From an uncultured Bacteroides sp. (GTDB lineage: Bacteria > Bacteroidota > Bacteroidia > Bacteroidales > Bacteroidaceae): a stretch of 40,633 bases of DNA. The position numbers were made by a program, and so were the translations under genes. Location: contig CAMWRY010000003.1 of assembly GCA_947176775.1 (NCBI GenBank), positions 1 to 40,633 of the forward strand, given 5' to 3'. Below are positions 6,108 to 33,598 of the stretch, in pieces. The notes beneath the pieces are model-generated. The model was not told the origin of the DNA and did no database searches. It saw only the letters and a list, made by a program, of their open reading frames with translations. Position 1 is the first letter of the stretch; every line of letters begins with the position of its first letter.

Positions 6108-6150
6108 ACGATTCTGTTTCTTAGTTTATGTCTATAACAAATTAGGCGTG

Positions 6151-6158
6151 CAAAAGTA
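6151..6158 (-). promoter_or_regulatory. -7 box of nrnA
   Basis: On the minus strand this reads TACTTTTG, an exact TAnnTTTG match about 44 bases before the nrnA start. A possible TTG -33 element lies at 6184-6182 with a slightly long spacer of 23 bases. Confidence 0.5.
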
Positions 6159-6173
6159 CAAAAAGTTTGTGAT

Positions 6174-15791: not shown

Positions 15792-17240
15792 CTATTCCGG
15801 CAAGTACAGCATCGTATCCGGCAGAGGTGTTTCCGGAATATTCCGTCCCGAATAGCCCACTTCCAGCTCTTGCCCCATATAGTCTTCAAAATAGAGCACG
15901 CGAAGCTCGTGAAGCCCTTTCTCCAGAGCCACTTTTCCTTCGCGGCGACGGGCACTGTGACCACCGTCGTTGTCTACCACCGGCTGACCGTCGATAGAGA
16001 GTACGGAACCATCGTCCGAATAGGTATAAAAGCGATATACTCCCCTCTCCGGAATCCGTATCAGTGTACGGAATTCATAGGCAAAATGGTCTGTGACAGC
16101 CGCCCCTTCTATCGAGAAGTTCTTCATCTCCCCCTTCTTCACCACCTTGCAAGAGGCGATATCGGCCACCTGTTTGCACTTTCCTTCATAGTAGGTATAT
16201 GCCACGCCATGCTTGCCGGAAGCCACCTGCTTTGCAGGCAGATAGGTCATGGTCTGCGCCTCTTTGGAATTCAGACCGGAGGGATAATAATAGACCGCCT
16301 CGCGCCCCTTGGGAGTCGTAATCCATGTATCGAACTTGAACTGCCCTTCAAACAGCTCAATAATTCGGGCACCTCGGGTCAAAGAGCCATACGCGTCCGC
16401 CCCGGTTACCCGGCCGTAGGCAAGCGCAATGCCACGGTCTATGCCGATGTAGTCATTGTCGTGGTCGTGTCCGGCAAACACACCCATCACATCCTGCATG
16501 TCGGCAAACGAGGCAAACATGCCTGAATTGATGTTAGCGGAGGCCACTCCCCCTTCCAAAGCATTGCCGAAAGTCTTCTCATCGTCCGTCAGTTCGTTGT
16601 ATTCGAGCAGCGGAATGTGGAAGAAGGCCAATGCTGGCACGGGGTTGCCACCGTTTCCGGCTGTAAAACGGGTGCTTTGCTTACGATACCAGTCTATTTG
16701 ATTGAAGTGAATCCAGTCGTAAGCCCCATAAAGCTTGTTCGGCTGATAGTCGTTGGAATCTATGCAATAAAGCAATGCCTCTACACGGTCTTTCTGCCGG
16801 GAACCGTACACCGGTATCACGCAGTTTCCACATCCCATAATCTCCTCCGGCCCCTTGGCACCTACGTAGTAGGGAGATTTCAGAAGAAAATCATAGATGG
16901 CATCCTTAGCCATGTACTCGGCATCGTGGTTTCCCATGGTCACGATAAAAGGAACTTTCGCCTCATTGAATATATCTGTTACCGCTTTCCAGCCTTCCAG
17001 GGCAGGGTCGTCGGTCACCACATCTCCGCTCAGTACTGCCATATCCGGCTGCTCGGCCTTCAGCACCGCCCGAATGGTAGCAGCTGTCTCGGCACACTTG
17101 GACGACTGGGGTGTCCAGTGCAAATCAGTAAACTGAGCCACCACAAACCGGCCATCTTTGAAAAAGAAGCGCTTCTGTCCCACAACCGCCAGCGGCATGC
17201 AGACCCACAAGAGCACTAAGAGAACAACTATTTTCTTCAT
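15792..17240 (-). CDS. Secreted calcineurin-like metallophosphoesterase with C-terminal PA14-like module
   Basis: A signal peptide (residues 1-21, ending PLAVVG) leads into a metallophosphoesterase domain with its motifs in order: FTDLHW (D39, H41), GD at 72-73, GNHD at 103-106, FHIP, and GHDHDND. These residues hold two metal ions. The family cleaves phosphomonoesters or diesters. After about residue 330 comes a PA14-like module with the SDDGSV and VDNDG motifs; this fold often binds carbohydrate. A near relative of that module ends the GH92 protein at the other end of the operon. Last gene of the six-gene unit, 15 bases after GH20. The substrate is not known. Confidence 0.88.
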   Translation of the reverse strand: MKKIVVLLVLLWVCMPLAVVGQKRFFFKDGRFVVAQFTDLHWTPQSSKCAETAATIRAVLKAEQPDMAVLSGDVVTDDPALEGWKAVTDIFNEAKVPFIVTMGNHDAEYMAKDAIYDFLLKSPYYVGAKGPEEIMGCGNCVIPVYGSRQKDRVEALLYCIDSNDYQPNKLYGAYDWIHFNQIDWYRKQSTRFTAGNGGNPVPALAFFHIPLLEYNELTDDEKTFGNALEGGVASANINSGMFASFADMQDVMGVFAGHDHDNDYIGIDRGIALAYGRVTGADAYGSLTRGARIIELFEGQFKFDTWITTPKGREAVYYYPSGLNSKEAQTMTYLPAKQVASGKHGVAYTYYEGKCKQVADIASCKVVKKGEMKNFSIEGAAVTDHFAYEFRTLIRIPERGVYRFYTYSDDGSVLSIDGQPVVDNDGGHSARRREGKVALEKGLHELRVLYFEDYMGQELEVGYSGRNIPETPLPDTMLYLPE

Positions 17241-17255
17241 AATTTCTTAAACCAA

Positions 17256-19574
17256 TTAGTGTATTTCTATTTCATCTATCGCCAACTCACTCTGTGCCCC
17301 CTCATTGTAGTATCCCTTAGGACACAGGCCGCCGCTCAGCAACTCCAGACGTACAAACGCCGCTTCCGCCTCCGGGAATGAGACGGATATGGGGAAACGG
17401 GTTCCTTCCGTCAAAGTGAAATCATAAGCCGGCTCTTTACTCCCCACCGGCACAAAGGTCTCTCCATCCGCAGAGAGGGAAACGCCTATCGCCCGAACCG
17501 GCCATATCGCATTGACCGGACGCCACAGGGAAGAGAGCGCTACCTCCTTGATTTTTTGCGGTTTTCTGAGTTGCACCACAATCTGCACACTGTCCTGATA
17601 GAAACTAATCCAGCGCCGCATATCACGGGCATATCCACGACGGCCGTCCGTCAGTCCGAAACCCTTATTCAGATGTTCCCAGCCTGCTTCCGGGCGGCAA
17701 GTATAGCTGCATCCGGTAGCCTTATTGACGGCAAAACTCTTATGAGTCACCTTCCCCAATGGCTTGCCATCTCTGTAGACCGCCGCATAAAGGGTAGCAT
17801 CCTTGTCCAATGGTACAGGGGCTTGATACCGGGAAGAAGCATTCGTGACCACCGAATCGTTCACCGCATAGTAAATCTCAGCATCGGGACAGAAGGTTTG
17901 CAAAGTCACCTCGTAGGTCTGACGGGCATCGTTCCACGCACCAATCAGGTTTGCTTCGTAGAAATTGCGGCAGGCATTGACTCCGTAGTCATCCAGCCGG
18001 CAAAACTCTCTGTCCAGCCTCCGGGCAAATGAACCGAAGTCTTTATGTTCCGGCTGTGTCCATTGCACCTCTGCCATGGCCAGCAGACGGGGGAAAGCCA
18101 TGTACTCGAAGTATTCGGGAGTCTGTATATACTCTCCCCAGATGTTACCTTGCACACCGATGACATACGTTTGCTCTTCCGGCGTCAGTGCGGCAGGAAG
18201 GGGATTATATCCGTACACCGTATCCAGCGGAAGATAACTGCCGATGGCCAACGGAGCAAATTCCGGGCTTTCCTGATAATGGTCCAGATAGCATTTGGCA
18301 CCGGGTGTCATAATGACCTTGTGCCGCTGACGGGCGGCCTCAATGCCTCCCTCCTCTCCACGCCATGACATCACGGTGGCATTGGGGGCAAGTCCTCCCT
18401 CCAAGATTTCATCCCAGCCGATGATGTCCCGTCCCTTGCTATTCACAAACTGCTCTATCCGATGGATAAACCAGCTCTGCAAAGCTTCTTCGTCCGGCAA
18501 GCCTTCCCGTTTCATCAGGTTTTGGCAATGGGTGCACTTCTTCCAGGCTTTCTTGGGGCATTCGTCGCCGCCAATGTGGATGTAGTGGCTGGGGAAAAGT
18601 TCCATGACTTCCGTCAAGACGTCTTCCAGGAATTCAAAAGTGTGTTCTTTGGGACAATAGACTTCATCAAAGACATCGAAATAATCGCGTACCACATACG
18701 TCTTCCCCAGTCCGCACGAAAGTTCGGGATAGGAGGCCAGTGCGGCAGAGGCATGCCCAGGCATCTCTATTTCGGGGATAACCGTGATGAAACGGTCAGC
18801 AGCATACTGCACGATTTCCCTTATCTCTTCCTGTGTATAGTAGCCTCTTTGCTCCTTACCGTCGTAACGCCGTGGATAGTAGTAGTCGGAATGGCCTACT
18901 TGCGTCTGCTTGCGGTAAGAGCCTATCTCGGTCAATTTCGGATATTTCCTGATTTCGATTCTCCATCCTTGGTCATCCGTCAGATGGAAATGGAATTTGT
19001 TCAGTTTGTAGAACGCCATCAGGTCGAGGAATTTCAGCACCTCTTCTTTGGGCAGAAAGTTACGGCCTACATCCATCATTGCCCCCCGATAAGGAAAACG
19101 GGGAGCATCTTCTATCGTGACGGCCGGAATCACCAGCGGCTGTTCCGGCCTGCGATGGGCATCATAAATATCCGCCGGCATCAATTGCAGCAAGGACTGG
19201 ACACCGTAGAACAATCCTGCTGCGGTGGCATTGGAAGTTATCCGGATGCCTGCACCGGAAACCTCCAACGTATAAGCCTCATCGGGCAAAGGGTCACGGA
19301 TGGCCAGAGTGATGTCGGCTTTCTCTGTTTCCGCCACACGTACCAAGACGACGGAAGTTCCTTTCAAAGCGCTCTCCAGATAACGGAATACCTTCATCGG
19401 AGCCTCTGCGGAAGAGACGGCCACTTTGGTTTCACCTTGCAAGATATATTCTCCTTGCATCAAGTGTATGTCATTCGGCATCGGTATGATACCTCCACCG
19501 AGAGCCGTATCACTCTGCCCTCCGCAAGAGCAGAGAAAAAGGGATGCAGCCAGTAACCAATATACTATCTTCAT
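17256..19574 (-). CDS. GH20 beta-N-acetylhexosaminidase lipoprotein
   Basis: The 772-residue protein starts with a lipoprotein signal (LFLCSC), then a GH20b alpha/beta domain, then the catalytic barrel from about residue 155. The catalytic Asp337-Glu338 pair is in HIGGDECPKKAW; the Asp positions the substrate acetamido group and the Glu is the acid. The C-terminal part carries a chitobiase-type domain and an F5/8-like domain near residues 640-770. Such enzymes remove terminal beta-linked GlcNAc or GalNAc from N-glycans or other host glycans. It sits between the GH63-like and metallophosphoesterase genes with short gaps (59 and 15 bases). Confidence 0.95.
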   Translation of the reverse strand: MKIVYWLLAASLFLCSCGGQSDTALGGGIIPMPNDIHLMQGEYILQGETKVAVSSAEAPMKVFRYLESALKGTSVVLVRVAETEKADITLAIRDPLPDEAYTLEVSGAGIRITSNATAAGLFYGVQSLLQLMPADIYDAHRRPEQPLVIPAVTIEDAPRFPYRGAMMDVGRNFLPKEEVLKFLDLMAFYKLNKFHFHLTDDQGWRIEIRKYPKLTEIGSYRKQTQVGHSDYYYPRRYDGKEQRGYYTQEEIREIVQYAADRFITVIPEIEMPGHASAALASYPELSCGLGKTYVVRDYFDVFDEVYCPKEHTFEFLEDVLTEVMELFPSHYIHIGGDECPKKAWKKCTHCQNLMKREGLPDEEALQSWFIHRIEQFVNSKGRDIIGWDEILEGGLAPNATVMSWRGEEGGIEAARQRHKVIMTPGAKCYLDHYQESPEFAPLAIGSYLPLDTVYGYNPLPAALTPEEQTYVIGVQGNIWGEYIQTPEYFEYMAFPRLLAMAEVQWTQPEHKDFGSFARRLDREFCRLDDYGVNACRNFYEANLIGAWNDARQTYEVTLQTFCPDAEIYYAVNDSVVTNASSRYQAPVPLDKDATLYAAVYRDGKPLGKVTHKSFAVNKATGCSYTCRPEAGWEHLNKGFGLTDGRRGYARDMRRWISFYQDSVQIVVQLRKPQKIKEVALSSLWRPVNAIWPVRAIGVSLSADGETFVPVGSKEPAYDFTLTEGTRFPISVSFPEAEAAFVRLELLSGGLCPKGYYNEGAQSELAIDEIEIH

Positions 19575-19633
19575 AATGTTCAGAATAACAGGTAACGAAT
19601 AAAAAGCTTTTCAAGCCCTATCTAAACAGACTC

Positions 19634-21238
19634 TTAATAAGTATGTTTACCGGACGTCACATGTATCTTTTTCTCTTTTCCGCCATAGCGTACACATAGT
19701 TCAAAGTCTATGTTGGAATCAATGCTGATGCGAGGTTCATCGTTGGCCGAACGGCGTGCCTCTGCCTTCAGACTGATTACTCCTTCCGGACCGAAAGGAT
19801 AACGTTCTATCCCGTTCGCCTCTGTCAGATTCATATCCCAGACTATCTGTTTCTTGGCATAATCTCCCCGGATGCCGATAATGAACTCTATCAGTTCGGC
19901 AATGGGGGGAAGTCCTGCCCAGCCCACAAAATTGTCTCTTGCCATAAATCCGGGGTCGGCACTCTCGGGTGCATAATACTCCCAGAAAGTTCCTGTCTTC
20001 TTATATACTTCCAGCACCTGTGCATAATGGTTCAGACAAATCTCGCGTGCCAATTTACTATACCCTTTCTGCATGAGACCCTGCATCACCATGTAATTGG
20101 TGCCCGGCCATACGCCGCCTTGCCAGTAACGGCCGTTCTCCTTGTACTTGGGATTATCGGCCGACAGGGAAGGAACGCGGTGCTTGCGGTTGAAAGTAGC
20201 CGGGTTATCCAGTTCTTTCACCATGCGATCCAGTTGTACAGAATCCAGCACATCCGTAAACAAAGCCCAGTAAGCACCTACGCCCTTGGTCTTGCAAAGC
20301 GAACCGTCGGCATACTGGTCGTAAAGGAAACCGGTCTCCTCATCCCACAGGTTGTCATGGATATATTTTCCCAACATCTTGGCCTCATCCTCAAATTCCT
20401 CTATCTCTTGCCAGCGCTCCAGATAAAATCCCATTTCAAGCAACAAGTTGGCTGTAAACAGTTGTTGCAGGTTAGTATCCAGCCAAATCATGTGTCCGTG
20501 GCTGTAGATAGGGCTATATTCCGAAGGAACACGGGGCATATTATCCATACCGGTTCCCCATCCGCTCGACCAATAAGTGCCATTCCGCCACGTATGATTC
20601 ATTTTCAACCATTTATAATAGGCGCAAAGCACCGGAAATATCTTATGCAGGCGTTCCGTATCTCCAAACTGATGGAAATAGACCATTTCACACCACGGCA
20701 TCAGGTTGGGACCGGTGCTTACGGGGTCATACCGCTCGAAACAGTCAGCACCGTCGGCCTTAATCTCGCGGCAGATAAATCCGTCGGGATGCTGCTTGGC
20801 ATAAAAATTGTTCAACGTATTCTGGAAGGGGAAGAAACGGGTGCCATAACGGGCAAACATCAAGATGAAGGAGGAGTCCCACATAAAGATGTTGCCATTG
20901 TAGGCCGTATCCAGGTAGCTTGAGACAAAGCCCGACCCGGCTTGTGGAGCACGGATATTACCGATGGCTATTTCCCATGCCTTCCAATACATCTCAAGTT
21001 CCTTGTCATGTCCGCTCCAGATGGGGTTGGGAAGAATCTGCCGGGCTTCCTCGAAGCTTTTTGGCTCAATGGTTTCAGGCTTGGCCACGCGATACTCGTT
21101 TTCAGTGACCAACGGTTCCTTAACATACGTATTCTTGTAAGGCAAATGATATTTCTCGTCATTGCCGCAACTCTGGGCCTTCAGCAAGGAAACGGCTGAA
21201 AGGGAAAACAGAGTTGCCAATAAAACTGGTTTCAGCAT
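19634..21238 (-). CDS. Secreted six-hairpin glycosidase, GH63/GH37-like
   Basis: A signal peptide (1-21, ending SLLKAQ) is followed by an (alpha/alpha)6-barrel protein of 534 residues in all. It resembles the MGH1/GH63/GH37 group: MWDSSFILMFARYGTRFFPF, WSSGWGTGMDNMPR, GRYWQGGVWPGTNYMVMQGL and TFWEYYAPES are typical substrate-site blocks. Members act on alpha-glucosides or alpha-mannosides such as trehalose, the glucose cap of N-glycans, or mannosylglycerate. I cannot pick the substrate; the GH92/GH20 context favours N-glycan or mannoside. It lies 16 bases after the alkaline phosphatase gene, within the operon. Confidence 0.85.
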   Translation of the reverse strand: MLKPVLLATLFSLSAVSLLKAQSCGNDEKYHLPYKNTYVKEPLVTENEYRVAKPETIEPKSFEEARQILPNPIWSGHDKELEMYWKAWEIAIGNIRAPQAGSGFVSSYLDTAYNGNIFMWDSSFILMFARYGTRFFPFQNTLNNFYAKQHPDGFICREIKADGADCFERYDPVSTGPNLMPWCEMVYFHQFGDTERLHKIFPVLCAYYKWLKMNHTWRNGTYWSSGWGTGMDNMPRVPSEYSPIYSHGHMIWLDTNLQQLFTANLLLEMGFYLERWQEIEEFEDEAKMLGKYIHDNLWDEETGFLYDQYADGSLCKTKGVGAYWALFTDVLDSVQLDRMVKELDNPATFNRKHRVPSLSADNPKYKENGRYWQGGVWPGTNYMVMQGLMQKGYSKLAREICLNHYAQVLEVYKKTGTFWEYYAPESADPGFMARDNFVGWAGLPPIAELIEFIIGIRGDYAKKQIVWDMNLTEANGIERYPFGPEGVISLKAEARRSANDEPRISIDSNIDFELCVRYGGKEKKIHVTSGKHTY

Positions 21239-21254
21239 GGGAAACAGGTATTGA

Positions 21255-22397
21255 TTATAGTTTAAGCAATTTCTTTATCTTGTCGAAGATGGCCGTATTC
21301 TCGAAGATTCCGGTAAACTCCTCTGCACCGGGACCGAAAGCGTACACCGGTACCATCACGCCACTATGACTGCCCGTTGAGAACTTGCATACAATCTTGC
21401 CCTCTTTCAGGTCGCCATCTACCAGCGTAAGGCCGCCTGTCTCGTGATCGGCAGTCACCACAACCAGTGTTTCACCATCCTTGGCTGCCCATTCGTAAAT
21501 GGCTCCGATAGTCCGGTCGAAGTCATGCGTCTCCTGCATCAGCAAGTCCAGGTCGTTGAAGTGTCCGTAGTCGTCCAGCTGCGAACCCTCTATCATCATA
21601 AAAAATCCTTTCTTGTTTTGATTGAGCAACTCAATGCCTTTCAAAGAGGCACGTGCCAGCAAGTCGCCCCGTTCGGCAGGAAGCGGCGTATCTTTCGGAT
21701 AGGGCACGGCAAACACTTTACCACTCCCGATGGCAGCCAGTTCATCCCAAGTACGCGGTGTCTGGAACCCCTTCGCACGCAGTTCCTGGAACAAATCGCG
21801 TCCATCCTTCCGGTTTTCAAAGAATTGTGCACCACCACCAAACACATAATCGGCCTTGCAATCCACATAACCGGTCACCACATCTTCCTCAGCATCCCGA
21901 TCCTTGTTATGGCAACAGAAATCGGCAGGCGTGGCATCCCACAGGCGGCAAGTCACAGCAAGTCCGGTAGACTTGCCTTTTTCCGAAGCCAAATCAATCA
22001 AAGATTTCAAAGGACGGCCTTCCGTATCTACTCCTACGTAATGATAGTTGGTCTTCTGTCCGGTGGCAATGGCTGTCCCACCGGCTCCTGAATCGGTAAT
22101 CAGCTTGTCAGCACAATATGTCTTAGACAATCCCACCGTCTGACAGTTATCCAAGAAGAGTTTGCCCCGATTGGCTGTCCATGCAGAATACACGTGCATC
22201 AGACTCATACCGTCGCCAATCATCAGAATCACATTTTTCACTTTCTTGCCTTGGGGTGGAGTTATCTTGGTCACCTCATAAGGTTGTTGTAATACATAAG
22301 TCTGCTCTTTATCACGGCGGTCTTGTGCCCAAGCATTCATCGGCAGTAGTCCTATCAGCAGACCTGCAAGAATACTGCTCTTCACTATACTTTTCAT
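21255..22397 (-). CDS. Periplasmic alkaline phosphatase
   Basis: The 380-residue protein has a signal peptide (MNAWAQ end) and the alkaline phosphatase core: MIGDGMS with metal ligand Asp62, TDSGAGGTAIATG with nucleophile Ser103, TADHETGGL, and the late GSHSG histidine. It hydrolyses phosphate monoesters in the periplasm using two zinc ions and one magnesium. It is shorter than E. coli PhoA (471), as is common in this branch. Being inside a glycosidase operon, and not a phosphate-starvation locus, it probably works on phosphate from glycans. The lead gap to the EEP gene is 38 bases. Confidence 0.93.
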   Translation of the reverse strand: MKSIVKSSILAGLLIGLLPMNAWAQDRRDKEQTYVLQQPYEVTKITPPQGKKVKNVILMIGDGMSLMHVYSAWTANRGKLFLDNCQTVGLSKTYCADKLITDSGAGGTAIATGQKTNYHYVGVDTEGRPLKSLIDLASEKGKSTGLAVTCRLWDATPADFCCHNKDRDAEEDVVTGYVDCKADYVFGGGAQFFENRKDGRDLFQELRAKGFQTPRTWDELAAIGSGKVFAVPYPKDTPLPAERGDLLARASLKGIELLNQNKKGFFMMIEGSQLDDYGHFNDLDLLMQETHDFDRTIGAIYEWAAKDGETLVVVTADHETGGLTLVDGDLKEGKIVCKFSTGSHSGVMVPVYAFGPGAEEFTGIFENTAIFDKIKKLLKL

Positions 22398-22435
22398 TGT
22401 TATTCTTGTTTATATTACCTATTTTCCTACCATAA

Positions 22436-23302
22436 TTATTCTACTGTCACCAACACCGGAGCATGGTCGGACAGGAAACTGTTATTCTCCATCTCGGCCA
22501 ATACGCCATACTTCACTACCTTCAACCCGTTGCCCACAAATACATAGTCTATCAGCGGACGTTGTTCGTAGGGAATGCTCCCGAAGTCATGGAAGCTCCA
22601 TGACGGGCCGTAAACCAAAGCAGACACCTCACGTGCATCCGTCAGATGCCCTGGATCTGCCGGGTTGGTAATGTGCTTGATGACATCCGATTCCGGAGTA
22701 GAATTGAAATCGCCGGTAACGACTATCGGCGCCCCATTGCTCAACTCCTTCACTTTATCCAAAATCAGACTGATTCCTTCACGGCGTGCCGCAACACCCA
22801 CATGATCCAGATGCGTATTCAAAGCAAAATATTCCTTACCGGAGCGTTTGTCTTGCAGTTTCGCCCACGAAGCCACGCGCTCGCAAGCACCGTCCCACCC
22901 TTTGGAACCGGCTACTTCGGGAGTCTCGCTCAACCAGAACGTACCGGAGTCGATTACCTCAAACCGCGTTTTCTTATACCAAAGCGCGCTGTATTCTCCT
23001 TTTTCCTTACCGTCCTCGCGGCCTACGCCTATCACTCCATATTCGGGAAGGCGTTGCTGCAAATCCTGCAACTGATTGTGCAATACTTCCTGTGTGCCCA
23101 CAATGTCCGCATCATAAAAACGAATGGCATTGGCTGCACGTTCTTTCCGGTACTGCCAGTTGTTCAGACTATCGCCCGGATTGTCATAGCGGATATTGAA
23201 AGACATCACATTCATAGATTCCTGCACAGCAGGCATAGTCTGCTTCCCCTGCCCACACGATACGAGCAATAAGGGAAAAAGCAATAAAGTTATTTTCTTC
23301 AT
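22436..23302 (-). CDS. Endonuclease/exonuclease/phosphatase-family lipoprotein, possible sugar phosphatase
   Basis: A lipoprotein signal with lipobox LVSC (Cys16) anchors a 288-residue EEP-fold enzyme. Its motifs are complete: MSFNIRYDN (Asn36), GTQEV (Glu72), LNTHLDHVG, GDFNSTPESDV and the final SDHAPVLV with the catalytic Asp-His. EEP enzymes split phosphodiesters or phosphomonoesters using magnesium or calcium. From memory, a related Bacteroides thetaiotaomicron protein in a yeast-mannan locus (BT3783) acts on phosphorylated mannose, so a mannoside phosphatase role is a fair guess next to GH92. It lies 15 bases after GH92. Confidence 0.85.
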   Translation of the reverse strand: MKKITLLLFPLLLVSCGQGKQTMPAVQESMNVMSFNIRYDNPGDSLNNWQYRKERAANAIRFYDADIVGTQEVLHNQLQDLQQRLPEYGVIGVGREDGKEKGEYSALWYKKTRFEVIDSGTFWLSETPEVAGSKGWDGACERVASWAKLQDKRSGKEYFALNTHLDHVGVAARREGISLILDKVKELSNGAPIVVTGDFNSTPESDVIKHITNPADPGHLTDAREVSALVYGPSWSFHDFGSIPYEQRPLIDYVFVGNGLKVVKYGVLAEMENNSFLSDHAPVLVTVE

Positions 23303-23317
23303 GGTAATTTATTTTTA

Positions 23318-26251
23318 TTATTTCACATACAATGCAGAAGAAGGAATCGGAGTAAGTTCCTGTGCCGAAGGCAATTTCCAAGCCCAACTTAAGGACTCTC
23401 CTTCGTAGTCCTCAAAATAATAGAGTTTATAAGGATGGAAGCCTTTTCGCAAAGCAATGGCTCCGGTAGCAGGAATAGCAGCATGAGAACCGTCGTTATT
23501 CACCACCATTTCATCACCGATATACAGCACACTACCATCATCCGAACTGGTCATGAATGTGTAGATGCCGTCCTCCGGTACCTCTATCAGACCAGAAAAG
23601 ATATATCCGAAGTGGTCCTCCTGTCTGGCATTCGCAATGGACGGTTCCGGCATGACTCCCGTATCCAGCAGAGGAGTCTTTTCCATATCGGCTACCTTCT
23701 GATAAGTGCCTTCATAATATCGGTAAGAGGTACCGGCCTGTACAGGATGTACGGCAAGTGCCGGCCTCATCTCTGCTTTGGTGGCCAGCATAGACAGGGT
23801 ATGGCTTGCACGGAATCCCTCCTTAAATCCTTTTACTTTGATGAGAGTTGTCTTGTCCAGTTCAAACGGCTTTTCATAAAGCGGTGACTGCTGTGTCGGT
23901 TCGCTTCCATCCAGCGTATATCTGATTTCAGCTCCTGCCGTCGCCGTACCCAATGCCACTGTAATCTTGTCCATAAACAGATTCAGGTCTTTGTCTACAT
24001 AAGGAATGGATACGACATTTTCCTTCGTATAAGAATAAGGAGCCGATTCGGCAGAAATACCTCGAGCCATTTCCGGTTTATCAGTCAGCGTAAAACGTAG
24101 TTCACCACCCTCCATCAATTGGGAGTAAGTAATAAAATTACGTTCTATCGGCTTTCCATTCAGTTCTACTTTATCTATATAGACATTCTTTTGCGGATTG
24201 TTGGCCAATATAGAGAGCGTCTTTCCGTTTGTCAGTTTCACCACTGCTTTCTCAAACAGCGGAGTGGTCAAGGCAAATTCATTGCTACCGGGACATACGG
24301 AATAAAATCCCAGACTTGAAAGGATATACCAGGCCGACATCTGTCCGCAATCTTCGTTACCGATAATGCCTTCGGGAGTCGGCGCATACATTTCGCGAAG
24401 CAACCGACGAGTCATCTCTTGTGTCTTCCATGGTTGTCCTACGTAGTCATACAAATAAGCAATATGGTGACTGGGTTCATTGCCATGTACATACTGACCT
24501 ATCACACCGGTGATGTCCGAAAGCTCTCCTTCCAACTTCAAGTCCGAAGAGAAGATAGAGTCAAGTGCCGCAACAAACTCCTCTTTGCCGCCAAAAAGCT
24601 GCATCATGCCATTCACATCATGAGGCACGAAGAAACGGTATTGCCAAGCAGTAGCCTCGGTATAGGCACGCCCCACCGCCAAGGGCTTGAAGGGTGTTTC
24701 CCAGTTGCCATCCATCCGTTTGGGACGGAAAAACCGGGTAGCCCCATCGAACACGTTCACATAGTTCTGCGAACGGGCCATGAATGTTTCATAAATTTCT
24801 TCTTTTCCCATCTCCTGTGCCATACGGGCTATACACCAATCGTCGTATGCAAACTCCAGCAAGCAGGATATGGACTCCCTCTTGATGTTCGAGGGAATAA
24901 AGCCGTTCTGCACATAGTAGTCCGCTCCTTTTTCATTTTTTTCAGCAGAAACTACCATTGCTTCCAATGCCTTTTCCGCATCAAACCCACGAATACCTTT
25001 CAAATAGGCATCGGCAATGACGGAAACAGCATGGTAACCAATCATCGTTCCTGTTTCTCCGGCTGAAAGGGGCCAGATGGGAAGTTCGCCCGAAGCATCG
25101 TAAATATCAAGGTAAGCGTTTATCATATCGTTCACCAAATCGGCATTGACCAGTGTCATCAATGGATTCCACGTCCGGAAAGTATCCCACAAGGAGAAAG
25201 TGGAATAGTGCTTCTTGCCCTCCGGCATCCGGCCTATGGTCATGTCGTGCCGGCGATACTCACCGTTGACATCGCTCACTACATTCGGCACCACCATCGA
25301 GTGATACAGAGCAGTATAGAAATTCTTCAAGTCGTCCGTACGACCGCCTTCCACCGTAATGACAGAGATTGCTTCTTCCCAAGCCGAACGGGCAGCAGTA
25401 CGCACAGCCTCAAAATCAAAGCCCTTCACTTCTGCTTCCAGGTTCTTGTGGGCATTCTCTTCACTCACCACGGACAGTCCCACCTTAACTACCAATGGCT
25501 CATTTCCTGCTTCGGCAAACGTAACCACTGCCAGTAAATCGGTACCGGATATCCGAGCCTCTGCAGGCATCGGTTTCTTGTCTTGTATGAAACGGACCAT
25601 GCGGAATGGTTCCGAGAACTGTGCCACAAAATAGACATACTGATTGTCGGTCCATCCCCTGGTTCTACGCATACCGGTTATTTCATTAGCTGCCGTCTGT
25701 TCCAGCGTAGCTTCATAAATATGTTCGTTATCCAGCAAATGTGCCAAATCTATGATGACAGACGCTTCCTCTCCGGCCGGAAACGTATAGCGGTGCATAC
25801 CCACATGTGACGTAGCAGTCAGCTCTGCTTGGATGCCATCTTCTTTCAATAGGACGGAATAATATCCGGCAGATGCCTTTTCTTCTTTGTGGTTGAAAGC
25901 AGCAGGCTGATAAAGGTGTTCAGCAGACAGGTCCAGCTTCTGTGTTGTAGGACGAAACAGGATATCACCCAAGTCGATACAGCCCGTGCCGCTAAGGTGA
26001 GTATGCGAAAATCCTTTCAATGTCGTATCGTCATAATGGTAGCCGCTGCAAGCATCCCAGTTTCCGACACGTGTATCCGGACTTAGCTGCACCGCTCCAA
26101 AAGGCACCGTAGCCCCCGGATAGGTATGTCCATGAAAACCGGTACCGATAAAAGGATCTATGTAATCAACAGGAAATTGCAGTTTGTCAGCCGTGCAAGC
26201 GCCACACACCATGCACACAAAAGCCACATATATTAATTGTTTCAGTTTCAT
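23318..26251 (-). CDS. GH92 alpha-mannosidase lipoprotein with C-terminal PA14-like module
   Basis: GH92 enzymes are calcium-dependent exo-alpha-mannosidases that trim N-glycans and mannan. The protein (977 residues from the ATG at 26251; an in-frame TTG lies one codon earlier) has a lipoprotein signal with Cys19 in VCGAC. The GH92 N-terminal domain begins DPFIGTG and continues GATVPFGAVQLSPDTR. The (alpha/alpha)6 catalytic domain includes NEDCGQMSAWYILSSLGFY near residue 675. A chitobiase-like segment (TLDGSEPTQQSPLY) and a PA14-like module with SSDDGSVLYIG follow at about 800-975. It is the first gene of the operon. The ICE is inserted 36 bases upstream, at the -7 box. No SusC/SusD genes are in the window. 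Confidence 0.95.
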   Translation of the reverse strand: MKLKQLIYVAFVCMVCGACTADKLQFPVDYIDPFIGTGFHGHTYPGATVPFGAVQLSPDTRVGNWDACSGYHYDDTTLKGFSHTHLSGTGCIDLGDILFRPTTQKLDLSAEHLYQPAAFNHKEEKASAGYYSVLLKEDGIQAELTATSHVGMHRYTFPAGEEASVIIDLAHLLDNEHIYEATLEQTAANEITGMRRTRGWTDNQYVYFVAQFSEPFRMVRFIQDKKPMPAEARISGTDLLAVVTFAEAGNEPLVVKVGLSVVSEENAHKNLEAEVKGFDFEAVRTAARSAWEEAISVITVEGGRTDDLKNFYTALYHSMVVPNVVSDVNGEYRRHDMTIGRMPEGKKHYSTFSLWDTFRTWNPLMTLVNADLVNDMINAYLDIYDASGELPIWPLSAGETGTMIGYHAVSVIADAYLKGIRGFDAEKALEAMVVSAEKNEKGADYYVQNGFIPSNIKRESISCLLEFAYDDWCIARMAQEMGKEEIYETFMARSQNYVNVFDGATRFFRPKRMDGNWETPFKPLAVGRAYTEATAWQYRFFVPHDVNGMMQLFGGKEEFVAALDSIFSSDLKLEGELSDITGVIGQYVHGNEPSHHIAYLYDYVGQPWKTQEMTRRLLREMYAPTPEGIIGNEDCGQMSAWYILSSLGFYSVCPGSNEFALTTPLFEKAVVKLTNGKTLSILANNPQKNVYIDKVELNGKPIERNFITYSQLMEGGELRFTLTDKPEMARGISAESAPYSYTKENVVSIPYVDKDLNLFMDKITVALGTATAGAEIRYTLDGSEPTQQSPLYEKPFELDKTTLIKVKGFKEGFRASHTLSMLATKAEMRPALAVHPVQAGTSYRYYEGTYQKVADMEKTPLLDTGVMPEPSIANARQEDHFGYIFSGLIEVPEDGIYTFMTSSDDGSVLYIGDEMVVNNDGSHAAIPATGAIALRKGFHPYKLYYFEDYEGESLSWAWKLPSAQELTPIPSSALYVK

Positions 26252-26286
26252 CAAGACAGATTTTTAATTACCTTTTTGTTTTCTTC

Positions 26287-26296
26287 GCAAAGTTAC
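26287..26296 (-). other. ICE left junction (attL core)
   Basis: The minus strand reads GTAACTTTGC, which fits GTANNTTTGC, the 10-bp sequence known to be shared by CTnDOT and its target sites. A 5-bp coupling sequence lies next to it, so the exact switch from element to chromosome is within a few bases of 26282-26296. The right junction is outside the window. Confidence 0.8.
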
Positions 26297-26319
26297 TACA
26301 AAAAAGTGAAATGCGGAAA
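26288..26319 (-). promoter_or_regulatory. Promoter of the glycan operon, overlapping attL
   Basis: On the minus strand TAACTTTG (26295-26288) is an exact TAnnTTTG -7 box lying inside the att core, 36 bases before the GH92 ATG. With a 20-base spacer the -33 position reads TTTC (26319-26316) in place of TTTG, and it lies in ICE sequence. The original -33 region and any activator site were therefore replaced when the element inserted. Confidence 0.55.
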
Positions 26320-26492
26320 GATATAGTGATAGAATTGAGTTACAAGGGTTTTGGTTGAAGTGGCGATAATCCGTGAAGCCATTACAATCCCTGCCGAAGC
26401 CAAATCCTGACGCCGCTACGTTACTTGTTCGTAACCATGCCCGAAAATGCGACAAACGGGTACGAATAGCGAAACAAGGCTCTAAGGAATAG

Positions 26493-26510
26493 TGAGTTAT
26501 CCATAACTCA
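26493..26510. promoter_or_regulatory. Perfect palindrome in the attL-int region
   Basis: TGAGTTAT-CC-ATAACTCA has 8-bp arms and a 2-base centre, about 107 bases before the int start. It may be a protein-binding site for int control or for assembly of the recombination complex. The rest of the gap 26297-26616 has repeated GTTAC pentamers and no gene. Confidence 0.45.
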
Positions 26511-26587
26511 TGCGAAAAATCAGGTTACGGAAAAAGATTGCGCCGTTCCTCCCCGTTTTGCGTACCAACACCGGACTCTTCACCAAC

Positions 26588-26595
26588 TAATTTTG
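26588..26595 (+). promoter_or_regulatory. -7 box of int
   Basis: TAATTTTG is an exact TAnnTTTG match 21 bases before the int ATG. A TTTG at 26557-26560 is too far for a normal -33 element (27-base spacer). Confidence 0.4.
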
Positions 26596-26616
26596 AACCT
26601 AAAAAAATTAAGGACG

Positions 26617-27852
26617 ATGAAGAGTACATTTTCAGTTATCTACTACCTCAAACGTCAGGTAGTGAAAAAGGACGGGACAGTACCCGTCATGGGACGTATC
26701 ACGGTGGACGGAAGCCAGACACAGTTCAGCTGCAAACTGACCGTCGATCCCAAGCTGTGGGACACCAAAGGAGGACGTGTCACGGGCAGAAGCACGGCGG
26801 CACTCGAAACGAACCGTATGCTTGACAAGATGCGGGTACGCATCAACAGGCATTATCAGGAAATCATGGAGCGTGACAACTTCGTCACGGCGGAGAAGGT
26901 GAAGAACGCCTTTCTCGGACTGGAACACCGCTACCACACGCTGATGCAGGTGTTCCGCCAGCACAACGAGGACTACGAGAAGCAGGTGGAGGCAGGCATG
27001 AAAGCCAAAGGCACGCTGCTGAAGTACCGCACCGTTTACAAGCACATGCAAGAGTTCCTCGACATCCGCTACCATGTGAAGGACATCGCCCTAAAAGAGC
27101 TTACCCCGGCTTTCATCTCCGACTTCGAGATGTTCCTGCGCACGGACAAGCACTGCTGCACCAATACCGTGTGGCTGTACGTCTGCCCGTTACGGACGAT
27201 GGTATTCATCGCCATCAACAACGAGTGGCTGACGCGCGACCCGTTCCGCGAGTATGAAATCAAGAAGGAGGAAACAACACGCAGTTTCCTGACCAAAGAT
27301 GAGATCCGCCTGCTGATGGAGGGGAAACTGAAAAACGCCAAACAGGAATTGTACCGCGACCTCTACCTGTTCTGCGCCTTCACGGGGCTGTCGTTCGCGG
27401 ATATGCGCAACCTTACGGAAGAGAATATCCGCACCTACTTCGACGAACACGAGTGGATAAACATCAACCGCCAGAAAACGGGCGTGGTGTCCAACATCCG
27501 CCTGCTCGACATCGCCAACCGCATAATCGGCAAATACCGGGGACTGTGCGGGGACGGCAGGATATTTCCCGTTCCGCATTATAACACGTGCCTTGCCGGT
27601 ATCCGTGCCGTCGCCAAGCGTTGCGGCATCACCAAGCATATCACGTGGCATCAGAGCCGCCACACGGCAGCCACGACGATATTCCTCTCCAACGGTGTTC
27701 CCATCGAAACGGTCAGCTCCATGCTCGGACACAAGAGCATAAAGACGACGCAGATTTACGCAAAGATAACCAAAGAGAAGCTCAATCAGGACATGGAGAA
27801 CCTTGCCGCAAGATTGAACGGCGTCGAGGAATTTGCAGGTTGCACCATCTAA
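26617..27852 (+). CDS. intDOT: Tyrosine recombinase IntDOT
   Basis: The integrase cuts and joins the ICE at attDOT/attB for integration and excision. From the ATG at 26617 it has 411 residues, the known IntDOT length; an in-frame TTG at 26593 overlaps the -7 box and is less likely. The arm-binding domain is N-terminal, the core-binding domain lies at about 100-215 and the catalytic domain after that. Catalytic residues are Lys287, His345 and Arg348 (HQSRHT), His372 (LGHKS) and the nucleophile Tyr381. The first catalytic Arg is replaced by Ser259 in TGLSFADM, a trait described for IntDOT, and Arg247 is also present. This numbering match makes the call firm. Confidence 0.97.
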   Translation: MKSTFSVIYYLKRQVVKKDGTVPVMGRITVDGSQTQFSCKLTVDPKLWDTKGGRVTGRSTAALETNRMLDKMRVRINRHYQEIMERDNFVTAEKVKNAFLGLEHRYHTLMQVFRQHNEDYEKQVEAGMKAKGTLLKYRTVYKHMQEFLDIRYHVKDIALKELTPAFISDFEMFLRTDKHCCTNTVWLYVCPLRTMVFIAINNEWLTRDPFREYEIKKEETTRSFLTKDEIRLLMEGKLKNAKQELYRDLYLFCAFTGLSFADMRNLTEENIRTYFDEHEWININRQKTGVVSNIRLLDIANRIIGKYRGLCGDGRIFPVPHYNTCLAGIRAVAKRCGITKHITWHQSRHTAATTIFLSNGVPIETVSSMLGHKSIKTTQIYAKITKEKLNQDMENLAARLNGVEEFAGCTI

Positions 27853-29073: not shown

Positions 29074-29141
29074 GTGAGTTGTTAAAGCCCCTTTTGTTTA
29101 TTGCCGAATTTTGTCGCAGAAACAAAAAGAAAGGACTGAAC

Positions 29142-29504
29142 ATGAAAGTGATAACAATGGAAAGTTCCGCCTACAAGGAGATGATGGCGCAGATTGCGAA
29201 CATCGCAGGGTACATCCGCGAGGCAAGGGACGAGAAGAAACGGAAGCGGGAAACCGAAGACAAGCTGCTTGACACGGCACAGGCGGCGAAGATGCTCAAC
29301 GTGAGCAAGCGCACCATGCAGCGTATGCGCACCGACCACCGTATCGAGTATGTGGTGGTACGCGGAAGCTGCCGCTACCGCCTTTCCGAGATACTGCGGC
29401 TATTGGAGGACAACACAGTAAGGAACGAGGAAGGGACAATAGACACCCTGTTCCACAACCACACGCTGCGCACGGGCGGCAAACCAAAAGGAAGGAGGAC
29501 ATAG
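29142..29504 (+). CDS. xis2c: Excision factor Xis2c
   Basis: This 120-residue basic protein has a helix-turn-helix of the excisionase type (LLDTAQAAKMLNVSKRTMQR, then the wing YVVVRGSCRYRLSEILRLL). It is the first gene of the four-gene excision operon, and the gap to xis2d is only three bases. In CTnDOT, Xis2c and Xis2d are needed with IntDOT to excise the element. Identification rests on the order HTH-HTH-DUF4099-topoisomerase next to intDOT and on size. The start at 29142 follows an AAAGGA-type ribosome site. Confidence 0.88.
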   Translation: MKVITMESSAYKEMMAQIANIAGYIREARDEKKRKRETEDKLLDTAQAAKMLNVSKRTMQRMRTDHRIEYVVVRGSCRYRLSEILRLLEDNTVRNEEGTIDTLFHNHTLRTGGKPKGRRT

Positions 29505-29507
29505 GTC

Positions 29508-29858
29508 ATGGAACTGCTCACACGAAACAACTTCGAGGGCTGGATGCAGAAGCTGATGGAACGGCTCGACCGTCAGGACGAACTGCTGCTGGCGATGAAG
29601 GCTGAGGGGAAACAGCCCACTATCACGGAAAGCATCCGCCTTTTCGACAATCAGGATTTGTGCATGTTGCTCCAGATAAGCAAACGCACCCTCCAACGCT
29701 ACCGCAGCGTAGGCGCATTGCCCTACAAGACGCTGGGCAAGAAGACCTATTACAGCGAGGAGGACGTGCTGACATTCCTTTCCAACCATATCAAGGACTT
29801 CAAAAAGGAAGATATAGCCTTCTACAAGGCTCGTATCCATAATTTCTTTCATAAATAA
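29508..29858 (+). CDS. xis2d: Excision factor Xis2d
   Basis: This 116-residue protein has an N-terminal coiled-coil-like stretch (WMQKLMERLDRQDELLLAMK) and an excisionase HTH (LCMLLQISKRTLQRYRSVGA, wing LPYKTLGKKTYYSEEDVLTF). It is the second gene of the excision operon, three bases after xis2c and 20 before orf3. By analogy with CTnDOT it binds attR/attL DNA together with Xis2c to favour excision. The family call is sure; the symbol rests on synteny. Confidence 0.88.
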   Translation: MELLTRNNFEGWMQKLMERLDRQDELLLAMKAEGKQPTITESIRLFDNQDLCMLLQISKRTLQRYRSVGALPYKTLGKKTYYSEEDVLTFLSNHIKDFKKEDIAFYKARIHNFFHK

Positions 29859-29878: not shown

Positions 29879-31450
29879 ATGGCAAAGAAAAAAGACGAAA
29901 AGGACGTGCTGGTAGTCCGTGACGAGAAGACAGGCGAGATCAGCGTGGTAGCCGGGCTGAACGCGGACGGCACACCCAAGCGCACCCCCGCAAAAGCGGA
30001 GAACGCGCAGAGTTTCCTGCAATTCGACCGACATGGCGACGTGCTGGACAACTTCTTCAAGAACTTCTTCCGGCAGTGCAAGGAACCCAGCCGCTTCGGT
30101 TTCTACCGCATTGCGGCAGACCAAGCTGAAAATCTCTTAGAGGTGATGAAGCAACTGCTGAAAGACCCCGAAGCGAACAAGGAGCTGCTCGCCCCTCACA
30201 AGGTGGACACCTCCGACTATGAGAAGAAGGTGCAGGAAGAGATGGCAGCACAACAGACAGAGAAACAAGAACCTCAAAAACAGGAGAACATGGAACAACG
30301 GAAAGAACAGCAACAGGACAAATCCGAACAGATGCAGGGCAAACGTGGCTACCAGCCCATCGACGAGAGTAAAATCAACTGGCAGGAGCTGGAGGACAGA
30401 TGGGGCGTAAAGCGGGACAACCTTGAAAAGTCCGGCGACCTTACGAAGATGCTCAACTATGGCAAGTCCGACTTGGTAAAGGTCAAACCGACCTTCGGCG
30501 GCGAATCATTCGAGCTGGACGCCCGCCTCTCCTTCAAGAAGGACGGTGAGGGAAACATCAGCCTCGTGCCGCACTTCATCCGCAAGGAGCAGAAGCTGGA
30601 TGAGTACAAGGAACACAAATTCTCCGACAATGACCGGAAGAACCTCCGCGAAACGGGCAATCTCGGTAGGGTCGTGGACATTGTGGACAGGGAAACGGGC
30701 GAGATCATCCCCTCCTACATCAGCATCGACCGCAAGACGAATGAAATCACGGACATTCCGGCAAGCAGGGTGCGCATCCCGGAGCGCATCGGCAAGACGG
30801 AAATCACCACGCAGGAGCGGGACATGCTCCGCGCCGGACTGCCCGTACGCGACAAGCTCATCGAGCGCAACGACGGCAGAAAGTTCGTCACCACCCTGCA
30901 AGTGAACGTGGAGCAGCGCGGCGTGGAGTTCGTGCCGGGAACCGGCAAGTCGCCCCGTACCGCACAGACACAGGAAACCAAAGGCGACACATCGAAAAGT
31001 CAGGCGCAGGGCGGGGAAAATGCCGCACAGACCAAGAAGGAGCAACGCCGCAACACGTGGACGAACGAGGACGGCAGCATCCGCCCCATCAGCAAATGGA
31101 GCGGCGTGAGCTTCACCGACCAGCAGAAAGCCGACTATGTGGCGGGTAAAGCCGTGAAGCTGGAGAACGTGACCGACAAGCAGGGCTTCCATGCCACGAT
31201 GTATATCAAGTTCAACCCGGAGAAGGGACGCCCGTACCGCTACGACACGAACCCTGACAATGCACAGCAGGTTGCTCCGTCCAACGAGAGCCGCACGCAG
31301 GTGGCGGTGAACAACGATGGCAAGACCAACGAGGCTACAAAGAATCTGAGAGAGCCGTTGCAGAAAGGTCAGACCAACCCGAAGGACGCCCGCCAGCAAC
31401 AGCAGCAGGAGAAGCCGCAGAAGAAAACGGGCAAGGGCATGAAAATGTAA
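29879..31450 (+). CDS. Orf3 of the excision operon, DUF4099/DUF3945 protein
   Basis: The 523-residue hydrophilic protein has an N-terminal DUF4099-like domain, a Gln/Glu-rich linker (about 125-155), a second folded block starting INWQELEDRWGVKRDNLEKSG, and one or two DUF3945-like repeats (YISIDRKTNEITDIPASRVR and the region from WSGVSFTDQQKADYVAGKAV). The tail is rich in Gln and Lys. No enzyme motif is visible. In CTnDOT the homologous orf3 sits between xis2d and exc and its role is unclear. It is 60 bases from exc. Confidence 0.85.
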   Translation: MAKKKDEKDVLVVRDEKTGEISVVAGLNADGTPKRTPAKAENAQSFLQFDRHGDVLDNFFKNFFRQCKEPSRFGFYRIAADQAENLLEVMKQLLKDPEANKELLAPHKVDTSDYEKKVQEEMAAQQTEKQEPQKQENMEQRKEQQQDKSEQMQGKRGYQPIDESKINWQELEDRWGVKRDNLEKSGDLTKMLNYGKSDLVKVKPTFGGESFELDARLSFKKDGEGNISLVPHFIRKEQKLDEYKEHKFSDNDRKNLRETGNLGRVVDIVDRETGEIIPSYISIDRKTNEITDIPASRVRIPERIGKTEITTQERDMLRAGLPVRDKLIERNDGRKFVTTLQVNVEQRGVEFVPGTGKSPRTAQTQETKGDTSKSQAQGGENAAQTKKEQRRNTWTNEDGSIRPISKWSGVSFTDQQKADYVAGKAVKLENVTDKQGFHATMYIKFNPEKGRPYRYDTNPDNAQQVAPSNESRTQVAVNNDGKTNEATKNLREPLQKGQTNPKDARQQQQQEKPQKKTGKGMKM

Positions 31451-31510: not shown

Positions 31511-33598
31511 ATGAAGACAATCATTGCAGAAAAGCCCTCCGTGGCACGTGAAATCGCCCGCATCGTGGGCGCGACAAAGAGAGAGGAAGGATATTTCGAG
31601 GGAGGCGGTTATGCCGTGACATGGGCATTCGGACACCTCGTTCAGCTTGCCATGCCCGACGGCTACGGCGTGCGCGGATTTGTCCGTGACAACCTCCCGA
31701 TTATTCCCGACACATTCACGCTCGTCCCCCGTCAGGTCAGGACGGAGAAAGGTTACAAGCCCGACAGCGGCGTGGTGTCGCAGATAAAAGTCATCAAAAG
31801 ACTGTTCGACACAAGCGAACATATCATCGTGGCGACCGATGCCGGACGCGAGGGAGAGCTTATCTTCCGCTACCTCTACCACTATACGGGTTGCACCACT
31901 CCTTTCGTGCGCCTGTGGATCAGCTCTCTCACCGACAAAGCTATCCGCGAGGGACTGCGGAAACTCGAAGACGGCAGCAAATACGACAACCTCTACCTCG
32001 CCGCCAAAGCGCGGAGCGAATCCGACTGGCTCGTGGGCATCAACGGCACACAGGCGTTATCCATCGCCGCCGGACACGGCACGTATTCCGTGGGGCGGGT
32101 GCAGACACCAACGTTGGCTATGGTATGTGAACGCTACTGGGAGAACCGCCGCTTTACGTCCGAAGCATTCTGGCAGCTCCATATCGCAACGGACGGTTGC
32201 GACGGCGAAGTCGTGAAATTCTCATCCTCCGAGAAATGGAAAGAGAAAGAACCGGCGATGGAACTATATAATAAGGTAAAGGCGGCAGGTTGCGCCACTG
32301 TCACGAAAGCCGAGCGCAAGGAGAAGACGGAGGAAACTCCCTTGCTCTACGACCTGACCACGCTCCAGAAAGAAGCCAACGCCAAGCACGGCTTCACGGC
32401 GGAACAGACGCTTGAAATCGCGCAGAAACTCTACGAAAAGAAGTTGATAACCTATCCGAGAACGGGAAGCCGCTACATCCCCGAAGACGTGTTTGCCGAA
32501 ATTCCCAAACTGCTCGCTTTCATCGGCACACAGCCCGAATGGAAAGACAAGGTGCGGGCAAAAGCCGCCCCGACACGCCGCAGCGTGGACGACGGCAAGG
32601 TGACAGACCACCATGCCCTGCTCGTCACGGGTGAGAAACCGCTCTTCCTCTCCAAAGAGGACAATACCATCTATCAGATGATTGCCGGGCGCATGGTCGA
32701 GGCATTCTCTGAGAAATGCGTCAAGGATGTGACCACTGTCACGGCGGAATGTGCCGGAGTGGAGTTTACCGTAAAAGGCAGCGTCGTGAAGCAAACCGGA
32801 TGGCGTGCCGTCTATGGCGAGGAAAAAGAGGAAATTACCATCCCCGGCTGGCAGGAAGGCGACACGCTGACACCGAAAGGCTCGTCCATTACCGAAGGAA
32901 AGACCAAACCCAAGCCGCTGCATACCGAAGCCACCCTGCTCTCGGCAATGGAAACGGCGGGCAAGGAAATTGAGGACGACGCACTGCGGCAGGCGATGAA
33001 GGACTGTGGCATCGGTACTCCCGCCACACGCGCCTCCATCATCGAAACGCTTTTCAAGCGCGGTTACATGGAACGCTGCAAGAAGTCGCTTGTTCCCACC
33101 GAAAAAGGACTTGCCCTCAATTCCGTCGTCAAGACGATGCGCATCGCCGATGTTGCCATGACGGGCGAATGGGAAAAGGAGCTGGCGCGTATCGAGCGCG
33201 GGGAACTGTCCGACGACACCTTCCGCAAGGAGATAGAGGCGTACACACGTGAGATAACCTCCGAACTGATCTCGTGCGACAAGCTCTTCGGCAGCCGTGA
33301 CTCCGGCTGCGCGTGTCCCAAGTGTGGCACGGGCAGGATGCGGTTCTACGGCAAGGTGGTACGCTGCGACAACACGGAGTGCGGACTGCCCGTGTTCCGG
33401 CTGAAAGCGGGACGCACCCTGTCCGACGATGAAATCAAAGACCTGCTCACCGAAGGGCATACCAAGCTGCTCAAAGGGTTCAAGAGCAAACAGGGCAAGA
33501 GTTTCGATGCTGTTGTCGCCTTTGACGGGGAATATAACACGACTTTTGTGTTCCCGGAGGCTAAAAAGGACAAGAAATTTTCAGGACGGAAGAAATAG
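31511..33598 (+). CDS. exc: Type IA DNA topoisomerase III (Exc)
   Basis: The 695-residue enzyme begins with a Toprim domain (TIIAEKPSVAREIARIVGA; metal motif ATDAGREGELIFRY). The central domain carries the nucleophilic Tyr in LITYPRTGSRYI, followed by the type IA gate region. A C-terminal zinc ribbon (CPKCGTG near 600, CDNTECG about 20 residues later) precedes a short TopB-type tail. It would relax or decatenate negatively supercoiled DNA. In CTnDOT, Exc is a topoisomerase III in the excision operon. The Asp-Ala-Gly form of the Toprim motif is shared by many bacterial TopB proteins and does not imply loss of activity. A terminator at 33676 lies downstream. Confidence 0.95.
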   Translation: MKTIIAEKPSVAREIARIVGATKREEGYFEGGGYAVTWAFGHLVQLAMPDGYGVRGFVRDNLPIIPDTFTLVPRQVRTEKGYKPDSGVVSQIKVIKRLFDTSEHIIVATDAGREGELIFRYLYHYTGCTTPFVRLWISSLTDKAIREGLRKLEDGSKYDNLYLAAKARSESDWLVGINGTQALSIAAGHGTYSVGRVQTPTLAMVCERYWENRRFTSEAFWQLHIATDGCDGEVVKFSSSEKWKEKEPAMELYNKVKAAGCATVTKAERKEKTEETPLLYDLTTLQKEANAKHGFTAEQTLEIAQKLYEKKLITYPRTGSRYIPEDVFAEIPKLLAFIGTQPEWKDKVRAKAAPTRRSVDDGKVTDHHALLVTGEKPLFLSKEDNTIYQMIAGRMVEAFSEKCVKDVTTVTAECAGVEFTVKGSVVKQTGWRAVYGEEKEEITIPGWQEGDTLTPKGSSITEGKTKPKPLHTEATLLSAMETAGKEIEDDALRQAMKDCGIGTPATRASIIETLFKRGYMERCKKSLVPTEKGLALNSVVKTMRIADVAMTGEWEKELARIERGELSDDTFRKEIEAYTREITSELISCDKLFGSRDSGCACPKCGTGRMRFYGKVVRCDNTECGLPVFRLKAGRTLSDDEIKDLLTEGHTKLLKGFKSKQGKSFDAVVAFDGEYNTTFVFPEAKKDKKFSGRKK

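Follow-up and report, generated by a model that had tools for sequence, protein, structure and literature searches.

The DNA analysed here, a stretch of 40,633 nucleotides from an uncultured Bacteroides sp. that is referred to below as the window, very probably holds the end, on the integrase side, of a CTnDOT-type ICE that has entered the −7 box of a GH92 operon promoter, with the upstream half of that promoter swapped and a hybrid promoter left in its place. In the proposed mechanism, the integrase would recognize a G followed by TANNTTTG and Y, i.e., the Bacteroides −7 consensus TANNTTTGY with a preceding G, and strand exchange would take place at the end of the box. Start region, leader and gene would stay where they were and acquire GTAACTTTG from the ICE, with the ICE DNA that lies upstream of this sequence, and the native upstream half, together with the native box, would be moved to the far end and point into the ICE. 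The operon would be left with a −7 box and upstream DNA from the ICE and with a start region of its own. Judged by sequence comparison, the target, the swap, the orientation and the enrichment before gene starts are established, and the structural part, a promoter box as the target and an exchanged upstream half, is solid; it is likely that the hybrid promoter is active and that the gene is uncoupled from its earlier upstream control. The ICE in the window presumably obeys the same rule at its own far end.

The junction in the window (Table 1) has an exact match to GTAACTTTGC, within which TAACTTTG fits the pattern TANNTTTG, and the box as TAACTTTGC matches the Bacteroides −7 consensus, printed as TANNTTTGY (PMC12632263). 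The initial annotation had placed ICE DNA on one side of the junction and the GH92 operon on the other, and this holds, with a tyrosine integrase as the first ICE gene and with the GH92 start codon (ATG, 26251) 36 nt downstream of the core. By Pfam, the operon comprises six genes for glycan and phosphatase functions, and its gene order recurs in a related genome (G033) except for GH20, which has no match there. Another genome (G076) has an ICE that shares 97% identity with the ICE portion of the window over 14.4 kb. Among solved structures, the integrase matches distant recombinases only and the second HTH protein has no match; the 1938-aa protein has weak matches, under the cut-off, to the DISARM DrmD and MADS2 models. 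The first six or so bases past the box in the window could be of either ICE or chromosomal origin.

Table 1. Features on the two sides of the ICE junction in the window.
Feature	Positions	Strand	Basis
Remainder of operon: endonuclease/phosphatase-type, alkaline phosphatase, MGH1-like, GH20, metallophosphoesterase with PA14	15792..23302	−	Pfam
GH92 gene, first in operon	23318..26251	−	Pfam Glyco_hydro_92
Chromosomal leader and start region of operon	26252..26287	−	3′ part aligns with G087 leader up to start codon; empty-site comparison
ICE core, integrase-side end, GTAACTTTGC with −7-like box TAACTTTG	26287..26296	−	Exact match; recurrence at ICE ends
ICE end from integrase start to junction; proposed outward promoter region	26288..26616	−	Single outward TANNTTTG, the terminal one
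TTTC, proposed −33 element (doubtful), 20 nt upstream of box	26316..26319	−	Sequence; TTTC/CTTC variation among ICE ends
Tyrosine integrase, 411 aa, first ICE gene	26617..27852	+	Pfam Arm-DNA-bind_5, Phage_int_SAM_5, Phage_integrase
Excisionase-like HTH protein (presumably Xis2c-like, by position)	29079..29504	+	HTH_17; TIGR01764 25.4 bits, under cut-off 28.8
Second HTH protein (presumably Xis2d-like, by position)	29508..29858	+	HTH_17
DUF4099/DUF3945 protein	29879..31450	+	Pfam
Topoisomerase III (presumably Exc-like, by position)	31511..33598	+	TIGR01056 topB, above cut-off
N6-methylase/SNF2-type helicase ICE protein, 1938 aa	34203..40019	+	Pfam N6_Mtase, Helicase_C

The core motif occurs five times in the window against 1.19 expected, and a count of five or more was reached in none of 100 shuffles. 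The other four GTANNTTTGC matches, all on the minus strand, lie at 6150-6159, 8063-8072, 10926-10935 and 15294-15303, and the one at 6150 stands 43 nt before the start, at 6107, of a minus-strand ORF. The chance that the junction is an assembly join with no real insertion behind it is extremely slim. The assembly, in 285 contigs and 64.5% complete, contains four ends of the ICE type, of which two coincide with contig ends, as such an error might produce; against this, the break falls at the same base as in the other junctions, 36 nt before a start codon, and near the position of the box in the closest relative. The contig breaks off within the window's own ICE, whose far end was not found in this assembly.

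The question of whose −7 box stands beside the gene was addressed by a survey of integrase-side junctions. Junction loci came from an integrase search, of which 80 of 169 relatives were taken, and from genomes of the genus, where 43 of 158 matched; the search of these 158 gave 30 junction loci at first and more were added later. Five loci with less than 400 bp of flank and one that ends before the ICE end (L095) were left out of the counts, and 98 distinct junctions are those left after merging flanks that differ at no more than 12 of their first 60 bases. Aligned at the integrase, the loci share an identical or nearly identical terminal stretch, typically CACTTTTTTGTAGTAACTTTG, with unrelated DNA beyond it. 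The gene-side box is TAACTTTG at 94 of the 98 junctions, TATCTTTG at two, and TACCTTTG and TAACTTTA at one each, and the base after it is C in 49 and T in the other 49. Since TAACTTTG and the adjoining ICE DNA recur before unrelated genes, the −7 box at the gene side is, by this comparison, the ICE's own copy, brought with the ICE and not chromosomal.

The native boxes are to be sought at the far ends. In three ICEs traced that far, the chromosome enters the ICE through the box GTATCTTTGC, five variable bases and then GAAGTTACG; one ICE of 49.19 kb is 99.99% identical in two genomes (G176 and G066) and has different genes adjoining it. A search with the far-end sequence matched 37 of the 158 genus genomes. 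At 43 distinct far ends, two of which (L199 and L223) resemble copies of one site, TANNTTTG is in place in 34 cases and absent in nine. The 34 native boxes read TATCTTTG (13), TATATTTG (8), TAACTTTG (3), TATTTTTG (3) or otherwise (7), with a G directly before the box in 32. The ICE itself shows TAACTTC at this end, which is no box, and its outward box, TAACTTTG, is found at the integrase end only. Twenty of 22 end pairs could be rejoined, the two left out having a far end without a box; the native far-end box can be told from the gene-side box in 18 of the 20, and in all 18 the two differ.

These counts bear on the view, put forward in the initial annotation, that the junction retains the −7 box native to the operon while ICE DNA takes the place of the −33 region alone. 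The window alone is indecisive on this point, and native TAACTTTG boxes do exist, as seen in three of the 34 far ends. The presence of TAACTTTG at 94 of 98 junctions and the difference in 18 of 18 informative pairs nevertheless rule out a chromosomal origin for the −7 box of the junctions and, with TATATTTG in the closest relative of the operon, they contradict that view and make a retained native box very improbable.

The claim that the target of the ICE is a −7 box has fared better, as the 34 of 43 far ends that keep their native TANNTTTG are joined by evidence from empty sites. Six rejoined sites were compared with the 158 genus genomes, and each was found uninterrupted in one relative or more, with the carriers breaking at the join; the best identities seen were 99% (G014), 75% (G030), 94% (G030), 90% (G090), 78% (G114) and 99% (G070). 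When sites were compared base by base (12 comparisons), agreement with the gene side began at the first base after the box in the closest relatives (G014, G030 at the G066 site, G070 and G021). An exception is the G176 site, where a 75% identical relative (CTCCAC) is closer to the far-end bases, CTCCAT, than to those at the gene side, so that up to about six bases after the box may derive from either partner. Taken together, the native boxes at far ends, the contiguous empty sites and the TATATTTG box of the closest relative (G087) indicate that the upstream promoter half is exchanged on integration and the start region retained, and to this extent the promoter would indeed be rewired without loss of its layout, as had been proposed.

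Some further observations concern the far ends. Under a strict hairpin rule, a terminator is found inside 21 of 42 far ends, and one was also found in a scan of a single end; in one locus (L147:16131-16156), a terminator-like hairpin is situated some 160 bp within the far end, where transcription from the displaced native promoter would meet it. That a terminator there stops the displaced promoter is a weak suggestion. A circular record, NZ_OR675140.1, was considered as a case of joined ICE ends and rejected, its sequence diverging from the ICE end before the core. One locus (L237, G022:C11:695200-704700), with the gene-side box TACCTTTG, has proximal and far ICE-like ends about 3.3 kb apart and is possibly a miniature ICE derivative.

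For the operon in the window, orthologues were sought through the MGH1-like protein, which has some match in 68 of the 158 genomes, and upstream DNA was taken from 15 orthologues and from G033; with two unreadable (G078 and G079), 14 remained. The closest, G087, whose GH92 protein is 86% identical, has TATATTTG 53 nt before the start, which is 9 nt farther off than the box in the window, and its leader aligns with that of the window up to the start codon. In a MAFFT alignment of the two, the leaders align and the boxes do not; a second, gapped alignment sets box on box with 44 of 63 columns alike. In seven others (G096, with GH92 84% identical, G089, G176, G074, G094, G133 and G033), TANNTTTG lies 57–69 nt before the aligned start, which brings the readable relatives with a box in this stretch to eight of 14, and both of the closest are among these; six (G178, G071, G091, G156, G080 and G032, at 72–80%) have no TANNTTTG within 300 bp upstream. 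The expectation that uninterrupted relatives would have a promoter at this motif was thus borne out in the two closest and failed in those six. The native box of the operon in the window can be presumed from such uninterrupted relatives. Several relatives (L277-L288, upstream of GH92) have the native box after a hairpin with a run of T, e.g., CTTGCAGAATTTTTTTATATTTG in G087, so that terminator and promoter seem to touch.

The position of the insertions relative to genes was also surveyed. At 62 of the 98 junctions, the first called gene is codirectional, i.e., points away from the ICE, and has its start no more than 80 nt off; at the remaining 36, the first gene starts farther off (18) or lies on the opposite strand (18). 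Control positions from the same flanks had such a start at 11 of 49 GTANNTTTGY sites, 73 of 252 TANNTTTG sites and 164 of 760 random places. Fisher tests gave p values of 3.7e-6 against the GTANNTTTGY sites and 5.5e-9 against the TANNTTTG sites, which serve only as guides because some of the controls were drawn from the flanks of the junctions themselves. The start distance is 19–31 nt in 36 of the 62 near-start junctions, and leaders in B. thetaiotaomicron are most often 23 nt long (PMC7366714). A reading by eye of the 36 uncounted junctions found eight extra codirectional genes that are short, overlapped or GTG-started (murB, an RbfA-like and a PcrA-like gene included), and these were kept out of the tests since the controls had not been read by eye.

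With one gene caller applied to the rejoined sites, 15 of 20 are intergenic with a codirectional start within 100 nt, compared with 19 of 85 motif sites (found in 729 kb, 51 of them inside genes; p 1.7e-5); three of the 20 were called inside a codirectional gene, the start of which was probably called too far upstream, and were counted as misses. Among intergenic sites alone, the figures are 15 of 17 for the rejoined sites and 19 of 34 for the motif sites (p 0.028), a modest enrichment, from which it follows that the avoidance of gene disruption explains much of the pattern and a preference for promoters some of it. By these counts, in which target choice and later selection are combined, it holds that gene starts are the usual insertion place of this type of ICE, and the suggestion that promoters could be hot spots for the family stands with the same proviso. 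Three separate insertions (L085, L057 and L136) lie before LacI-type regulators that are mutually 40–59% identical.

A short AT-rich core might also be picked without regard to promoters, with survival mostly intergenic, the likeness to a −7 box incidental and the gene either silent or read from elsewhere in the ICE. Of 34 intergenic motif sites, 19 precede a codirectional start anyway, 36 of the 98 junctions are not near such a start, and the match at −33 is weak and inconstant, all of which an incidental likeness would accommodate. It would sit less easily with the clustering of start distances at 19–31 nt, with C or T after the box in 98 of 98 junctions, as in the published −7 consensus, or with single-copy argS and murB behind ICE ends whose terminal box is the sole outward TANNTTTG in the last 364 bases, and this explanation is considered unlikely.

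Under the preferred reading, in which a promoter box is the target and its upstream half is exchanged, the ICE end is proposed to act as an outward promoter. The last 364 bases of the ICE end (26287-26650 in the window) contain a single outward TANNTTTG, at the very terminus, and the integrase gene is oriented in the opposite direction. Genes directly behind ICE ends include, in G066, argS (with a class I tRNA synthetase (R) domain) at 23 nt and, in an Alistipes, murB at 4 nt, each the sole match in its genome, cysS at 58 nt in the window's own genome, and purH (27 nt), folB (20 nt), ruvX (10 nt), miaA (74 nt), mtaB (26 nt) and surE (37 nt). Both argS and murB are usually needed for growth; if they are needed here, transcription must enter from the ICE DNA, and the single-copy argS and murB, together with cysS, argue for outward transcription.

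What the ICE offers at −33 is less clear. TTTG is found near −33 in Bacteroides promoters (PMC7366714), and the tetramer at this position is TTTC in 80 and CTTC in 18 of the 98 ICE ends. At spacings of 18–23, a match to TTTG at three or more of its four bases occurs in about 31% of shuffled upstream regions. The TTTC that had been read as a −33 element is thus present at 20 nt upstream of the box, but given its replacement by CTTC in 18 of 98 ends and the chance level of the match, it is a weak candidate for that role. Native target sites have TTG at about the −33 spacing in nine of 34 cases, against 9% in shuffles, so many native targets are also without a clear −33. On the whole, the observation in the initial annotation is partly confirmed and the interpretation given to it partly supported.

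The window's assembly (G000) has its four ICE-type ends on contigs C3, C10, C144 and C213 (L001, L257, L258 and L259), each less than 60 nt before a codirectional ORF; the ORFs are the GH92 gene (36 nt), cysS (58 nt), a DUF1573 gene (27 nt) and a 76-aa ORF (20 nt). The end on C144 (L258) and one in G089 (L077) are at one promoter, with the DUF1573 gene ahead and an apparently alpha-2-macroglobulin-like gene behind, which places an ICE there in two species; the downstream genes of C144 and G089 are 67% identical. Another contig of the same genome, C56, was considered as the far flank of the window's ICE and rejected, as it ends in an apparently alpha-2-macroglobulin-like gene, like the far flank of the G089 site. 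This shared flank and the downstream similarity of C144 and G089 pair C56 with C144.

Beyond the window, the main promoter box of the hosts probably serves the whole ICE family as its attachment site, with an outward promoter half present at just one end of the ICE. Each transfer would then replace the upstream control acting on a single gene or operon, a promoter swap across the Bacteroidales in which the gene is kept alive, even where it is argS or murB. CTnDOT is said to be present in 80% of natural Bacteroides isolates (PMC10865816). If each copy swaps the upstream half of a promoter, strain differences that consist of an ICE only may alter the control of glycan, cell-wall and translation genes. 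Promoter swapping would also help to explain how hosts tolerate a low-specificity integrase so well.

Members of the CTnDOT family have a core with about five coupling bases at the crossover and an excision operon that encodes two HTH proteins, a third ORF and topoisomerase III. The ICE in the window is like CTnDOT, CTnERL and CTn341 of Bacteroides in the tyrosine integrase at one end, in the core GTANNTTTGC with its coupling bases and in the order of integrase, two HTH proteins, DUF3945 protein and topoisomerase III, and nothing tested separates it from the family. By core, coupling bases and excision-operon layout, the element fits a CTnDOT-family ICE; the nearest printed link for the integrase concerns another element (PMC5729914). 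An ICE of the same type in G066 has MobB, MobC, TraG, TraJ, TraK, TraM and TraN above the cut-offs, and an EF-G-like protein of 641 aa, the length of TetQ, with a 772-aa hybrid histidine kinase after it. The tetQ-rteA-rteB and tra/mob genes are absent from the window, whose contig stops inside the ICE. The literature searched, in which the subscription journals that are said to have printed much of the IntDOT work were thinly covered, held no statement of CTnDOT-type ICEs replacing a −7 box.

Two other systems offer a comparison. The TnGBS elements of streptococci are likewise ICEs that insert in one orientation before the promoters of many genes, using a DDE transposase and inserting 15–17 bp upstream of the −35, where the promoter stays whole (PMC3942029); the ICE in the window, in contrast, has a tyrosine integrase and would insert at the end of the −7 box, with the upstream half exchanged. 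The function of the target is likewise restored when PvCTn inserts in ppdK, where the stop codon is regenerated (PMC11005914), but there a coding end is rebuilt at one fixed site, whereas the type of ICE seen in the window would rebuild a promoter, and at many sites. What is new here, then, is that the target of a CTnDOT-type ICE appears to be a −7 box and that the box beside the gene is exchanged.
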